From: Sulfolobus sp. A20
GTDB taxonomy: Archaea > Thermoproteota > Thermoprotei_A > Sulfolobales > Sulfolobaceae
Direction: 5' to 3'
DNA length: 64,000 bases
Assembly (NCBI RefSeq): GCF_001719125.1
Contig: NZ_CP017006.1
Span: forward strand, 1,674,001-1,738,000
This document shows, piece by piece, positions 5,984 through 13,040 of this stretch. Position 1 is the first letter of the stretch, and each line of letters opens with the position of its first letter. The notes below the pieces were generated by a model that ran no database searches, was not told the DNA's origin, and saw nothing but the letters and a program-made list of their open reading frames with translations. Position numbers and translations under genes: made by a program.

Positions 5984-7177
5984 CTATTCAGTTTTATAAT
6001 CCTTATAACTACTAGAACTCTTTGTCGTGGATAACAATTTCATATATACATACCCTCCTATAGCTTGGAGAACTCCACCAACTTCTAGTGGTAATGGCAA
6101 AGCGTATTCTAAAAGATATCCGCTCAGTCCAGAGCTCATTTGAGATAGCCTAGTAGCTATACCTTGAATACTTGAGGCAGTACCAAAATCTTCAGCGGAA
6201 ACTCCCCTTACATTTACCATCGTTCTATTAGGAGAACCAATTCCGGCATTTAGCCCTCTAATAATATAAATTAACGCAGCTAATGGAAACCACGGTGACA
6301 GCGCCATGGCTATTAAGAATACTCCATTTAATATTCTAGTCACTGAAGCTACACGCAGTGGTTCTGCCTTAATCTTATTGGATACTAACGAACCTACTGC
6401 TGTGAATAGATAAGACATAGTAAATACTAATCCAATCATAAATGAGTTAGCATGAAAAGCTAAGTTAAACCACAATGGTAAAAGGGGAATTGCTAGTCCT
6501 AAACCAAATCCAGTTATTGAATTAGATATAATAACTTTTGAAATGTATTTAAAGCTGGAAATTGACATTATCTTGGACGTCTTTCTGGGTCTCTTAACTT
6601 CTCCTACGAAGAAAAGTGAAATTGTAGAAATTAATAATAATATAAAGGATATCAAATATAACATTCTATACCCTTGAATAGTGTTGTTTATATAGGCTCT
6701 AAGACTTAATAGTATACTTCCGCCTATACCAGAAAAGGAAGAAGCTGACATCAAAAAGCTCATTCTCTTAATTCTTTCTCTCTCATCTTTCCAGTTACTT
6801 GCTACTAACGCGGTAAGTCCAGGTGAAAAAGCCCCTCTAATTCCACCTGCTGCTCCACCTACTCCACCTATAATTAGAGCTGTAAATATTAAATAGTAAT
6901 TAGAGACTACAGTACCCAAAATTAGGGAAGCAACACAGGCTAATGTCTCAGTCGCTATTAAAATCTTCTTATACCCATACCTGTCACCTATCATACCTAA
7001 TGAAAACGTAAGAACAGAGGAAAACCCTATTGCTCCCAAGAACACTACTCCTATTACGTCTGGTTTTACTCCTAATGCTGATAGATATAATGAAGAAGAA
7101 AGCGTTATGTAAATTATTCCTACGCTTCTAGCAACACGTGATATTAAAAGAAAGACATAGCCATAGTCATCTCTCAA
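5984..7177 (-). CDS. MFS transporter (12 TM)
   Basis: The 397-residue membrane protein has about 12 hydrophobic helices in two halves. GMIGDRYGYKK after TM2 is MFS motif A. VGGVGGAAGG and RGAFSPGLTALVA around TM4 are small-residue rich, as in MFS exporters. A second-half loop is short. The C-terminus ends in a Ser/Lys-rich tail. It is distinct in sequence from the two DHA2-type proteins in the window. It stands alone, facing the 320-residue gene across a 112-bp divergent gap. The substrate cannot be predicted. Confidence 0.85.
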   Translation of the reverse strand: MRDDYGYVFLLISRVARSVGIIYITLSSSLYLSALGVKPDVIGVVFLGAIGFSSVLTFSLGMIGDRYGYKKILIATETLACVASLILGTVVSNYYLIFTALIIGGVGGAAGGIRGAFSPGLTALVASNWKDERERIKRMSFLMSASSFSGIGGSILLSLRAYINNTIQGYRMLYLISFILLLISTISLFFVGEVKRPRKTSKIMSISSFKYISKVIISNSITGFGLGLAIPLLPLWFNLAFHANSFMIGLVFTMSYLFTAVGSLVSNKIKAEPLRVASVTRILNGVFLIAMALSPWFPLAALIYIIRGLNAGIGSPNRTMVNVRGVSAEDFGTASSIQGIATRLSQMSSGLSGYLLEYALPLPLEVGGVLQAIGGYVYMKLLSTTKSSSSYKDYKTE

Positions 7178-7289
7178 AAAAATCCCCTAATTTACGAATA
7201 GTTAATTAAATACTTAAACTTTTTCTTTCTAACTAACTAATTCGAAAAAAGAGTTAATATAAATGAAATGATTTTATTTTATCTTAAGT

Positions 7290-8249
7290 TTGAGGATTAA
7301 ATTTAATAACACGTTTAAAGATACATTAGGTTATATGCCTATATGCCCATCTTGTGAAATTAAATTTAGTTCTTGGGAAGAATTAACGAAACATATAGAT
7401 GAAATGGCTAACTCAAAAAGTGAACCCTCTCACGTAATGTGGTTAAATAGGAATATTTCCATAAAGAGGATAGAAAGAGAAGAGCTTCAACGTAGGTTAG
7501 AAAGTTTCTTTAATGAGCCTGAAAGTTTAGCAATGTGGATAAGAAAAAGATTCATAGACAAATTTTATGGTGATAATCCTCATCCATTCATGATAGCAAT
7601 GCAGAAGCCTACTAGAGGAGTATTACTAGGTTACGTCATTGAACATCAACATTTCTTAAAGAATTGGGTGAAAGTACTATCATCAATTGTCTTTAATACT
7701 GATAAAGATGACGTATTGCATTATGAGTTAGAAAATATCAAAGTAGAGTTTATAGGATATGGTAATAGACCATCACATTATGAATTACTGTTGAGAATGG
7801 GAGAGTCATTAGGGATGCCTAGAGACAAAATCCTATCCACACCTCCACTTCCTGCGACTCAATCTGCTATAAGAACGTGGGTAAACATAGCTAAAACTAG
7901 GAATTGGCTGATAACTATGGCTTCAATGCACAGTTTAGAGTTAGTTGCAGATAGATCACTGACAAAGTACGGAGCCAAGTTAACTTATTTTAATCCCTCT
8001 ATATTGACCTCAGATGAATATCCGAAAGAAGTTAAAGATTTCTTAAGAGAAGGCTATGAAGCTGATATATCACATGCTGGAGAAGCATTAGAAATGGTGG
8101 AGAAATACGCAGATCAGATAAACTTGAAGGAAGAAGTTCAGGTCGTAGTTCTGAAGTCATTTGATGCCTTTTCAAAATACTTATTAGCTAGATTAGAGAG
8201 AGGATTTGAAATAGAACCTAATCTGGTTAAGGTGGTGTTTAAGGGATGA
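7290..8249 (+). CDS. Zinc-finger, heme-oxygenase-fold (TenA/PqqC/HDO-like) protein
   Basis: The 319-residue protein starts with TTG; the next in-frame ATG is codon 16. Residues 19-48 carry C-x2-C-x12-H-x12-H, a possible zinc finger. The rest is helical and resembles the heme-oxygenase-like superfamily. Candidate metal or catalytic residues are Glu118/His121 (IEHQHF), His163/Glu165 (SHYELL), His214/Glu217 (MHSLEL) and Asp259/His262 (EADISHAGE). This spacing resembles diiron heme-oxygenase-like oxidases as well as TenA and PqqC proteins. The reaction is unknown. It overlaps the next gene by 4 nt (ATGA), so the two are co-translated. Confidence 0.6.
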
Positions 8250-8566
8250 GGATAATCGTTAATGGAAAGGAAGCGGGAACCAAGGAAAAAGGTTGTGCAC
8301 TGTGTGGGGCTACTTGGGGAGAGTACTACGAAGAAATAGATAATGAAAAACTGTTTTTCTGCTGTGACTTTTGTGCATTAGAATTCACTAACATGATTAA
8401 AGAGGTTAAAAAGAGAAATAATTGGGATAGAATTGATGACCTAGAAATTAACGGTAATTATTACACTGGAAGAACTTGTACAGCAAAACGACAAGGAAAG
8501 GAGTATAAATTCTACGTCAAATTTGACGATGAAGGAGGGATAGGCACTTTCAAAGAGTTAAATTAA
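8246..8566 (+). CDS. Small Cys-rich protein (Ta0938-like zinc-binding)
   Basis: The 106-residue protein starts at the ATGA junction with the preceding gene. It has CALC near residue 17 and CCDFC near residue 39, two knuckles of a likely zinc or iron site, plus a single Cys in RTCTAKR. The layout resembles the Thermoplasma Ta0938 family of small metal-binding proteins; this family link is from memory of the pattern only. Being coupled to the heme-oxygenase-fold gene, it may be a metal donor, electron carrier or subunit for it. A 205-bp gap with a hairpin follows. Confidence 0.6.
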
Positions 8567-8688
8567 TATTTTAGAACTTTAACCGGCATCCAAAAATGCT
8601 TCTAATTTTATTAGAATTTAATCTCAGTAATATAGGAAGAAGCATTCTAAACTAGAATTCTTACTGATTGAAATTTCTCCTAGCTTGC

Positions 8689-8726
8689 TCTCACCTTAAA
8701 GGGGAGGCTTTCCTCGCTTTGCAAAA
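8689..8726 (-). repeat. Recurring hairpin element, copy c
   Basis: On the minus strand: gcaaagcgaggaaagcctcc followed by cctttaaggtgag. The first half matches the family consensus (caaagtgaggaaagcc); the tail is diverged. It sits between two convergent genes, where its stem could stop transcription from both sides. Confidence 0.55.
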
Positions 8727-8771
8727 AATTAGGAATAATATCTTTAAAAATTATATAAGAATTTAAGTAAA

Positions 8772-9047
8772 TTAATTAATCTCTCTGCATAACCCATTCT
8801 CATCTATCCTTACCTTATTACTTCTTGGATGTTCTAAAGAACGACAAAATACTCTGGCGTTTCCGATTTTAACTAGGAGTAAGAAGTATGAATTTTCGAA
8901 TCCATCTGGAGTAGCATTTAATTTCCACGACTGTATTACTTCACCTTCGTTTGCTTTAATTTCACTGAATTCAGATGAGTTACACTTAGGACATCTAGCC
9001 CTTTTTACCCAAAAGGTATAGTTACAGTTCTTACATACATATATCAT
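8772..9047 (-). CDS. DUF35 OB-fold / zinc-ribbon acyl-CoA-associated protein
   Basis: The 91-residue protein has an N-terminal rubredoxin-like zinc ribbon (CKNC near residue 5 and CPKC near residue 19) followed by an OB-fold, the DUF35 architecture. DUF35 proteins pair with thiolases; in the archaeal mevalonate pathway they bridge acetoacetyl-CoA thiolase and HMG-CoA synthase. Its ATG overlaps the stop of the upstream thiolase by 4 nt, so the two are a translationally coupled pair. Confidence 0.85.
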   Translation of the reverse strand: MIYVCKNCNYTFWVKRARCPKCNSSEFSEIKANEGEVIQSWKLNATPDGFENSYFLLLVKIGNARVFCRSLEHPRSNKVRIDENGLCREIN

Positions 9048-10177
9048 GGCTCATCACCATATATTATTACAGTGGCTGAATTTCCGAAACCAGCCATACT
9101 TAATGAGAGTCCAGTTCTAGCATTTTTAACTTGTCTCTGTCCAGCTTCTCCCCTTATTTGATAAAAAGCTTCAATAGCTTGGGCTACACCACTAGCCCCT
9201 ATTGGATGACCTTTAGAATTAAGACCTCCACTAGTATTTATAGGTATTTCACCATTTATTGAAGTATAATCATCTAGATACGCTTTCCAACCTTCACCCT
9301 TCTTGAGCAGTCCTAATTCTTCAGCCTCAACAATTTCTAAAACAGTTGCCATATCGTGTAATTCAGCAAAATCCACTTTTTCTATTTTTGACGATTTCCT
9401 AGCCATCTCCCCAGCTACTTTAACGGCTTTGATAGAAAGTATATCTTCTCTCTCCGATATTGAAGATGAATCAGCATAAGTTCCAATACCTTTTATGAAG
9501 ACAGGTTTTTTATTATAGCTGTAAGCATCTTCATCTCTCGTCATAACTATGGCGCAAGCTCCATCACTAATTGGTGTAAATTCATAAAGTGTTAAGGGAT
9601 CCGCTATTATAGGGGACTTTAATACTTCTTCCAGAGTCACTTTAGATTGTATATGAGCATATGGGTTAAGGGAACCGTTATAGTGATTTTTTACAGCTAC
9701 TAGTGCAAAAACATCTCTGGGTGCGTTATACTTCTTCATATATTCTTTTGCCATTAATCCGGCTAATGAGGGCAAAGTTAATCCAGCTCTTCTTTCTTCA
9801 TATGGTAGTAATGAAGCTATTATCGAAGTTATTTGCTTAGTATTCCTTTCAGACATTTTCTCGACTCCAATAACTAAGACCGAATTAGCTACCTTAGAGT
9901 CAAGTAATGATTTAGCCACTAATATAGCTGAACCTCCACTTCCGCTTGTATTATCTACTCTTATTGAAGGTAAATTATCCTTGCCTATATAAGTTGTTAT
10001 TAGATTATTTAAACCTGATATCGAGTTAAACTCGCCAGAATAACTATTAGATATTATTGCAAAGTCTATATTTTCATACTTTTGAACTAAGGGCAGAGAG
10101 ACCTCAGCTGCTAGATCTAATACATTCTCTTTTCTCTTACCGAATCGAGTTATTTTCACATCGATAATTGCAACCAT
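9044..10177 (-). CDS. Thiolase-family protein with Ser at the nucleophile position
   Basis: The 377-residue protein has the SCP2/archaeal-type thiolase fold. GGLNSKGHPIGASG is the conserved His loop and FAELHDMAT the second-half helix. The block that normally reads N-A-C-A-S-G-S reads NTSGSGG here, with Ser78 where the acyl-accepting Cys belongs. The C-terminal loop is AGFGNSA without Cys. Condensing or thiolytic activity is therefore doubtful; it may be a scaffold or use another chemistry. A TATA-like tttaaatttata lies about 30 nt before the ATG. It forms an operon with the DUF35 gene. Confidence 0.8.
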   Translation of the reverse strand: MVAIIDVKITRFGKRKENVLDLAAEVSLPLVQKYENIDFAIISNSYSGEFNSISGLNNLITTYIGKDNLPSIRVDNTSGSGGSAILVAKSLLDSKVANSVLVIGVEKMSERNTKQITSIIASLLPYEERRAGLTLPSLAGLMAKEYMKKYNAPRDVFALVAVKNHYNGSLNPYAHIQSKVTLEEVLKSPIIADPLTLYEFTPISDGACAIVMTRDEDAYSYNKKPVFIKGIGTYADSSSISEREDILSIKAVKVAGEMARKSSKIEKVDFAELHDMATVLEIVEAEELGLLKKGEGWKAYLDDYTSINGEIPINTSGGLNSKGHPIGASGVAQAIEAFYQIRGEAGQRQVKNARTGLSLSMAGFGNSATVIIYGDEP

Positions 10178-12431: not shown

Positions 12432-13040
12432 ATGAGCCAGAAAATTGACTTTGATTACATTAATCAGCTTGCCAAAAGATCATTAGGAGGTGATCTAAAA
12501 AGTTTTGAAAAACTACTTAATATACTAGAAAAATATGAGAATTTTCCACAAGTAAAATTCGGACTATATTCTTTAATTTATCAACTTTCTATGAATGTTT
12601 TTATCGACGTCTCAAAAGAATGTGAAAAATGTGGTGGGAAATGTTGCAAATCTGGTTATCCTATACCAGTCTATGAATTTGATTACAAGGAATTAGCTAA
12701 AAGAATGAATAGAGAAGAACTTGAGAAATTGAGGAGAGTAGACAACATTTATTTATTACCTAGACCTTGCCCATTCCAACAAGGATGGGTCTGTACTATC
12801 CATAGATTTAAACCTTATGCTTGTTTATCTTTTCCATTTGCTACTGAAGATGAACAAAGAGAGATTATTAATAATTACGATGGAAAAGGTATACCAGACT
12901 TCAAAGTGCCAGAATACTGCATCGCAGGAAAGAAAGTAAAAGAAACTCTTAATGCAATAATCAGTGACTTAGAGAAATGCCTTGGAAGAAAACCTACTCC
13001 TAAAGAACTTTACCAAGCAATAATGAAAAAAAAGAAATAA
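12432..13040 (+). CDS. YkgJ-family cysteine-cluster protein
   Basis: The 202-residue cytosolic protein contains CEKCGGKCCKSG near residue 63, then PCPFQQGWVCTIHRFKPYAC and a late EYCIAGKK Cys. This is the CxxCxxxCC...C...C pattern of the YkgJ/UPF0153 family, believed to bind zinc or an FeS cluster. The biochemical role is unknown. The start ATG follows tttatctttctcctataactatag; the 230-bp upstream gap is AT-rich with no other feature. Confidence 0.82.
   Translation: MSQKIDFDYINQLAKRSLGGDLKSFEKLLNILEKYENFPQVKFGLYSLIYQLSMNVFIDVSKECEKCGGKCCKSGYPIPVYEFDYKELAKRMNREELEKLRRVDNIYLLPRPCPFQQGWVCTIHRFKPYACLSFPFATEDEQREIINNYDGKGIPDFKVPEYCIAGKKVKETLNAIISDLEKCLGRKPTPKELYQAIMKKKK

Follow-up and report, generated by a model that had tools for sequence, protein, structure and literature searches.

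A finger-bearing TenA/HDO-fold protein and its Cys-rich Ta0938-family partner form a conserved gene pair, with a probable selenoprotein partner in bacteria

The window analyzed here is a stretch of 64,000 nucleotides from the genome of Sulfolobus sp. A20, which is 2.69 Mb long and consists of a single contig. Two open reading frames, 7290-8249 and 8246-8566, overlap by the sequence ATGA at the locus under study. The upstream gene encodes a finger followed by a heme-oxygenase-like domain (hereafter the enzyme), and the downstream gene encodes a small Cys-rich protein of the Ta0938 family (hereafter the partner). An earlier reading of this DNA, made from the letters and their open reading frames (the sequence-only reading), had let the first gene start at TTG 7290. 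However, alignments of relatives and of 4LQX to the enzyme begin at the MPxCPxC motif, and the upstream-extended aligned stretch carries stop codons in 8 of 21 other full-length relatives. Therefore, ATG 7335 is the likely start of the enzyme gene. The features of the locus are as follows.

7335..8249, plus strand: TenA/HDO-like protein of 304 aa with a zinc finger and a heme-oxygenase fold, probably starting at ATG 7335 (the listed open reading frame starts at TTG 7290)
7335..7508, plus strand: zf-C2H2_9 finger with Cys4, Cys7, His20 and His33 (codons 7344, 7353, 7392 and 7431)
7515..8228, plus strand: heme-oxygenase-like / TenA-fold domain, from profiles and model (model residues about 61-298)
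7746..7748, plus strand: Glu138, putative metal ligand, unchanged throughout the 55 archaeal and 7 bacterial rows
7776..7778, plus strand: His148, putative metal ligand, invariant in the same rows
7938..7940, plus strand: Glu202, putative metal ligand, invariant in the same rows
8052..8054, plus strand: Gly240, at the third-His position of CADD/NePabS, Gly in 55/55 archaeal rows; the bacterial rows have Ser, Thr or Gly
8064..8066, plus strand: Asp244, putative metal ligand, unchanged throughout the 55 archaeal and 7 bacterial rows
8073..8075, plus strand: His247, putative metal ligand, invariant in the same rows
8246..8566, plus strand: Ta0938-family (PF11494) Cys-rich partner, 106 aa, with the ATGA overlap to the enzyme gene
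8294..8305, plus strand: partner CxxC (Cys17, Cys20), which remains Cys in bacteria
8360..8374, plus strand: partner CCxxC (Cys39, Cys40, Cys43), the site of TGA codons in bacterial homologues

The enzyme matched the profiles zf-C2H2_9 (PF16293; 97.2 bits, cut-off 29) and TENA_THI-4 (PF03070; 162.9 bits, Pfam cut-off 22), and Haem_oxygenas_2 was also over its cut-off with 56 bits; the CADD-family profile gave an E-value of 5e-6, far below that profile's cut-off. An AlphaFold model built with 28 sequences reached a pLDDT of 94.6 and a pTM of 0.92, and its superposition gave VIA Z values of 45.3 for 4LQX, 21.9 for TenA, 21.4-21.7 for CADD, 20.1 for PqqC, and 19.2 for both HrmI and UndA. The profile search and the structure model, which the sequence-only reading had proposed as checks, thus bore out its assignment of a heme-oxygenase / HDO-like fold that superposes on the metal-binding CADD, UndA and HrmI. 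The closest known relative, like the enzyme in family and architecture, is SSO2700 of Sulfolobus solfataricus (4LQX, TENA/THI-4 domain-containing; 77% identity, E 1.5e-163), and we found no open PMC paper naming 4LQX or SSO2700, nor one that links it to the partner or to a selenoprotein. TenA (thiaminase II) and PqqC share the TENA_THI-4 family and the fold with the enzyme, but their identity to it is 10-20%, and three separate TenA-like genes are present in the same genome. TenA catalysis uses Cys/Glu, and outside the finger no alignment column of the enzyme family reaches 90% Cys. Although they share the fold, TenA and PqqC are not known to have an HDO-type metal site.

Putative metal-ligand positions of the enzyme were assigned by sequence alignment to CADD and the pABA synthase 9PJ4, starting from the residues which we take to bind metal in CADD. 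The 55 archaeal rows contain 50 distinct sequences, five being identical copies of others, and the residue counts omit L093 (frameshifted) and L063 (truncated enzyme, partner intact). Five of the six CADD-type positions (E138, H148, E202, D244 and H247) were kept in all archaeal and bacterial rows, and Gly240 stands at the remaining His position of the HxxxDxxH motif. With Gly in place of this third His throughout the archaeal rows, the classic three-His diiron site is not supported. The four Glu/Asp-His pairs of the sequence-only reading accordingly give way to these five invariants and G240 as the sixth position, and of a standard diiron site with three His and three carboxylates one His is missing in every member. 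Ligand variation among orthologues, which had been named as a finding that would speak against the site, was confined to the third-His position, where archaea have Gly and bacteria Ser, Thr or Gly. Y100, E103, H104, H199, Y218 and Y241 were further invariants in the archaeal enzymes. The recent review PMC13108848 gives three His and three carboxylates as the common HDO ligand set, and describes a mononuclear variant in which two ligands of helix alpha3 are missing. UndA, HrmI and other HDO oxygenases share the heme-oxygenase-like fold with the enzyme, but by this rule their set is 3H/3C, in contrast to 2H/3C in the enzyme. Judged by its aligned residues, the enzyme family fits neither the 3-His/3-carboxylate set nor the mononuclear variant exactly; with two His and three carboxylates it could be mononuclear, or it could hold no catalytic metal, as in PqqC/TenA, on which the model superposes just as well.

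The finger has the spacing C4-x2-C7-x12-H20-x12-H33, and these four residues were present in 53-54 of the 55 archaeal rows, the rest being gaps. Fusion of a C2H2-like finger to a heme-oxygenase-like domain was correctly seen in the sequence-only reading, but the case for calling the combination unusual is weak, for both parts are in Pfam and a fused relative, 4LQX, has been solved. Six of the seven bacterial loci encode the finger in a gene of its own, and it is fused to the enzyme only in L094. This standalone gene in most bacterial loci suggests that the finger serves for docking or assembly.

We found the full-length enzyme in 22 of 60 relatives, and the same 22 carried Ta0938 over the cut-off, always adjacent. 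In the genome collection the partner adjoined the enzyme in 36 of 36 loci, 32 of them by the profile of an ordinary open reading frame (including Bathyarchaeota, Thaumarchaeota, Thermoplasmatota and Crenarchaeota) and four after TGA read-through. The proposed coupling of the two genes was therefore supported in both sets, and the pair spans several archaeal phyla and two bacterial phyla, a range for which "thermoacidophiles" had been too narrow. Because co-occurrence and ligand conservation both extend across phyla, the pairing lies above chance. The ATGA overlap was present in 19 of 24 loci examined in detail. A simple pattern detected the two genes in order at 59 of 64 loci; it missed L063, L071, L073, L086 and L093, and in the last four the partner was present by profile. 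In L063 (G199:C12) the enzyme gene is about 500 bases shorter and the partner gene is intact, which may reflect an assembly fault or a decaying pair. The 23rd enzyme match among the 60 relatives (L023; G010:C2:215064-215285) is a 74-residue remnant without a partner, and both genes of this genome seem to have been lost together.

Gao and Gupta (2007) tabulated Ta0938 and its neighbour Ta0939 ('PQQC') as common to Thermoplasmata and Sulfolobus (PMC1852104, the part covered). By that table, the pair had already been seen as a thermoacidophile signature, with no function attached. In our tree, which omits 10 near copies and has a single outgroup row, the bacteria fall on a long branch inside soil archaea, and the branch is too long to trust. 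A heme-copper oxidase (COX1) gene was present in 11 of 12 finger-positive Thermoproteota genomes versus 115 of 300. This is consistent with the use of O2 by the pair, but the link is driven by one family: COX1 also occurs in those Sulfolobaceae that have no pair, and it is missing from one positive MAG.

The partner is a clear member of the Ta0938 family (PF11494, 147.7 bits against a cut-off of 27; match to 2FQH, E 1.9e-31), for which no function assignment was found in open PMC papers; a plasmid search for it gave no match. Its cysteines had been described as two pairs, but they form a CxxC and a CCxxC motif with five invariant Cys. In the model (pLDDT 97.6), short strands lead into a helix that starts at residue 41, directly at CCxxC, and a four-strand sheet follows. 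The start of a helix is a usual place for a reactive Cys or Sec thiol. The profile TRASH_HVO_1752_C matched seven of seven bacterial partners below its cut-off (16.5-26.2 bits, cut-off 27), and YHS matched four of seven, also below the cut-off (best 20.6 bits against 30.3). These weak matches point to a putative metal-binding domain of zinc-finger type, and together with the position of CCxxC at the helix start they favour a partner with a metal-thiolate or redox role. A structure search with the partner model gave no clear match, the best Z being 5.0, to unrelated cystatin-like and designed proteins. The solved relative 2FQH was absent among the best 50 matches listed for this confident model (8246-8566); the model may depart from the NMR structure, or 2FQH may have gone unranked by Foldseek.

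Four bacterial loci, one in Bacillota and three in Actinomycetota, had no partner as an ordinary open reading frame. When TGA was read through, PF11494 appeared in all four genomes immediately downstream of the enzyme gene, with two to three in-frame TGA codons each. Wider searches covered 396 Actinomycetota genomes (one match, already known), 397 genomes of one order (four matches, three of them new) and 154 genomes of the Bacillota class (one match, already known). The resulting seven bacterial partner genes, whose sources include metagenome bins, each hold two to three in-frame TGA codons, and all 18 of these lie at C39, C40 or C43, the invariant cysteines of the archaeal CCxxC. The archaeal FCCxxC thus reads FCUxxU in three bacterial partners and FUUxxU in four, and with TGA taken as Sec the seven proteins score 49.7-63.9 bits against Ta0938. 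The naive probability of this placement is about 1e-25 when common descent is ignored; for one gene with two TGA codons it is about 0.002. In six genes, codon differences past the last TGA were 0.22, 0.20 and 0.48 per codon at positions 1, 2 and 3, the third position being more than twice as variable as either of the others. A tRNA-Sec with the anticodon tca was found in all four bacterial genomes tested of the seven, and SelB was over its cut-off in three of these, the fourth scoring 213.9 bits against 242. Given TGA at the archaeal Cys positions, coding past the TGA, and tRNA-Sec and SelB in the genomes, we conclude that the bacterial PF11494 partners are probable selenoproteins with two to three selenocysteines in CCxxC. 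A reassigned code that reads TGA as Trp or Cys was rejected, since 11 of 15 neighbouring genes in five bacterial loci have TGA as their stop codon and TGG codons occur in all 15.

Evidence for a SECIS element after the UGA is weak. We searched for SECIS-like hairpins by the published rule (PMC13188914, section 5). The rule was matched in seven of seven genes, but also at 371 of 710 control positions (52% background), and by minimum free energy the candidate elements were not clearly below shuffles in most of the seven genes. A stem 3 nt past the last TGA codon was paired in 83% of cells versus 34-57% when it was slid, and its covariation was weak, with the score being reached by 23 of 500 shuffles.

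The PF11494/Ta0938 family is neither in the 87-family selenoprotein table of PMC9312934 nor in the 119-family table of PMC13188914, and it did not appear among the nine new selenoprotein families in the covered part of PMC12013277. Open PMC full text on Ta0938, 4LQX and SSO2700, on selenoproteins with a TRASH domain or a heme oxygenase-like one, and on selenocysteine in Acidimicrobi likewise gave no such report. The bacterial Sec members of PF11494 are new here, and the probable selenocysteine partner is the new and most useful result of this work. Within the covered part of PMC13188914, the most similar known proteins are small metal-binding Sec proteins (FmdB family UxxU, MbdU and NF041115 UxxU), which likewise carry two Sec in a metal or redox motif. 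An NCBIfam scan of four of the seven bacterial partners gave no match to FmdB, MbdU or NF041115, indicating different families.

Since selenocysteine in the bacterial partner seemingly replaces the very cysteines of the archaeal one, the partner probably does chemistry rather than only holding zinc. That the Cys-rich partner may supply iron or electrons, as the sequence-only reading had suggested, becomes more plausible with the bacterial in-frame TGA codons where archaea have Cys. We propose that the pair is a two-component metalloenzyme, presumably using O2, with a dedicated redox or soft-metal-binding partner, a reading to which we give an even chance of being right. The enzyme would be a TenA/HDO-fold oxidoreductase with one or two metal ions, probably iron, held by two His (H148, H247) and three carboxylates (E138, E202, D244). 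The partner would have a TRASH-like fold of zinc-finger type, be redox active or bind a soft metal, and most likely hand electrons or metal to the enzyme in a stable complex, with the finger acting as a docking module; the bacterial version would be the same partner with two to three selenocysteines in CCxxC.

The same observations can be read in other ways. The 1:1 gene pairing, and the matches of TRASH_HVO_1752_C and YHS below their cut-offs in seven and four of the seven bacterial partners, would also suit a metallochaperone, in which case a TRASH-like carrier would supply metal to the HDO-fold protein and take no part in turnover. However, Sec is mostly found in redox motifs in the covered part of the catalogue PMC13188914, where the soft-metal cases MerT, ZntA and FmdB also occur, and we regard such a carrier as possible though unlikely. 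That the partner is instead the substrate, with the enzyme oxidizing or modifying its Cys/Sec or another of its residues, would agree with the strict pairing and the CCxxC at the helix start, and CADD/NePabS set a precedent for HDO enzymes that act on protein residues (PMC11965152 and PMC13108848); the five Cys, however, resemble a metal site, and we consider this idea quite unlikely. There is little chance, in our view, that both proteins hold structural Zn and that the TenA-like fold serves binding or regulation without catalysis: the finger, the zinc-finger-like partner and the likeness to TenA and PqqC (Z 21.9 and 20.1), which are not known to have such a metal site, are in line with it, but five polar ligand-type residues are invariant across archaea and bacteria, and the partner has probable Sec at two or three positions.

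An archaeal pABA (folate/methanopterin) synthase of the CADD/NePabS kind is scarcely probable. CADD and NePabS share with the enzyme the fold and five of the six ligand positions, the CADD-family profile gave its match far below the cut-off, and L094 has folP 3 kb downstream, while in L075 the operon is flanked by thyX. However, the enzyme has Gly for the third His, an extra finger and an obligate partner, and the gene is absent from many relatives. The self-sacrificing synthases use up Tyr25/Tyr27 and Lys159/Lys152, according to the covered parts of PMC11965152 and PMC13108848. In the enzyme family, the Tyr position (HPF+1, matched by eye on the HPF motif) is M, I, L or V in 55 of 55 archaeal rows, there is no Lys column at 90%, and the Lys position, counted from the ligand Glu, is Y, E, D or M. 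With both sacrificial residues absent, we rejected this reading.

The two-component metalloenzyme can be put in a bolder form. Here PF11494 would be a selenoprotein family missing from the catalogues, and its Cys/Sec cluster would act directly at the HDO metal site, where a thiolate or selenolate could take the vacant third-His position as ligand, reductant or substrate. We consider this version unlikely; if true, two proteins would together form a novel type of centre for O2 activation, sulfur-based in archaea and selenium-based in bacteria. The pairing brings together, as a single conserved system, two orphan families whose structures are solved, PF16293+PF03070 (4LQX) and PF11494 (2FQH). 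A further gain is a probable selenoprotein family with as many as three Sec, whose genes a standard gene caller would cut short at the first UGA. Sec exactly at the conserved partner Cys points to CCxxC as the reactive part, and this makes the role of the pair testable. Moreover, an HDO-fold protein with a changed ligand set is available in Sulfolobales, some of which are genetically tractable.

The MFS, DUF35-like and thiolase genes next to the pair in the window were rejected as operon partners, as they recurred only in loci from the same genus. A third gene, which encodes a small protein (about 71 aa, with two invariant Cys in CxxxC), immediately precedes the enzyme gene at 13 of 36 loci, for example at 7762-7977 of L079, and was also noted at 8122-8427 (minus strand) of L134. 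With these 13 loci and three of the 60 relatives it was not accepted as an operon partner beyond the pair, and the two copies scanned had no Pfam match over the cut-off. In L085 of Metallosphaera yellowstonensis, a Rieske ferredoxin gene (7376-7729; Pfam Rieske, 42 bits), a possible electron donor, stands just upstream of the three-gene group. Folate-related genes occur near the operon in unrelated genomes, namely folP and, by eye, an HPPK-like region in L094 (within 7083-9530), thyX in L075 (1861-2598) and, again by eye, a folate-related gene in L077 (420-1157). In the window itself, 12432-13040, 4 kb downstream of the pair, encodes a CxxCxxCC (PF03692) putative zinc- or iron-chelating protein.
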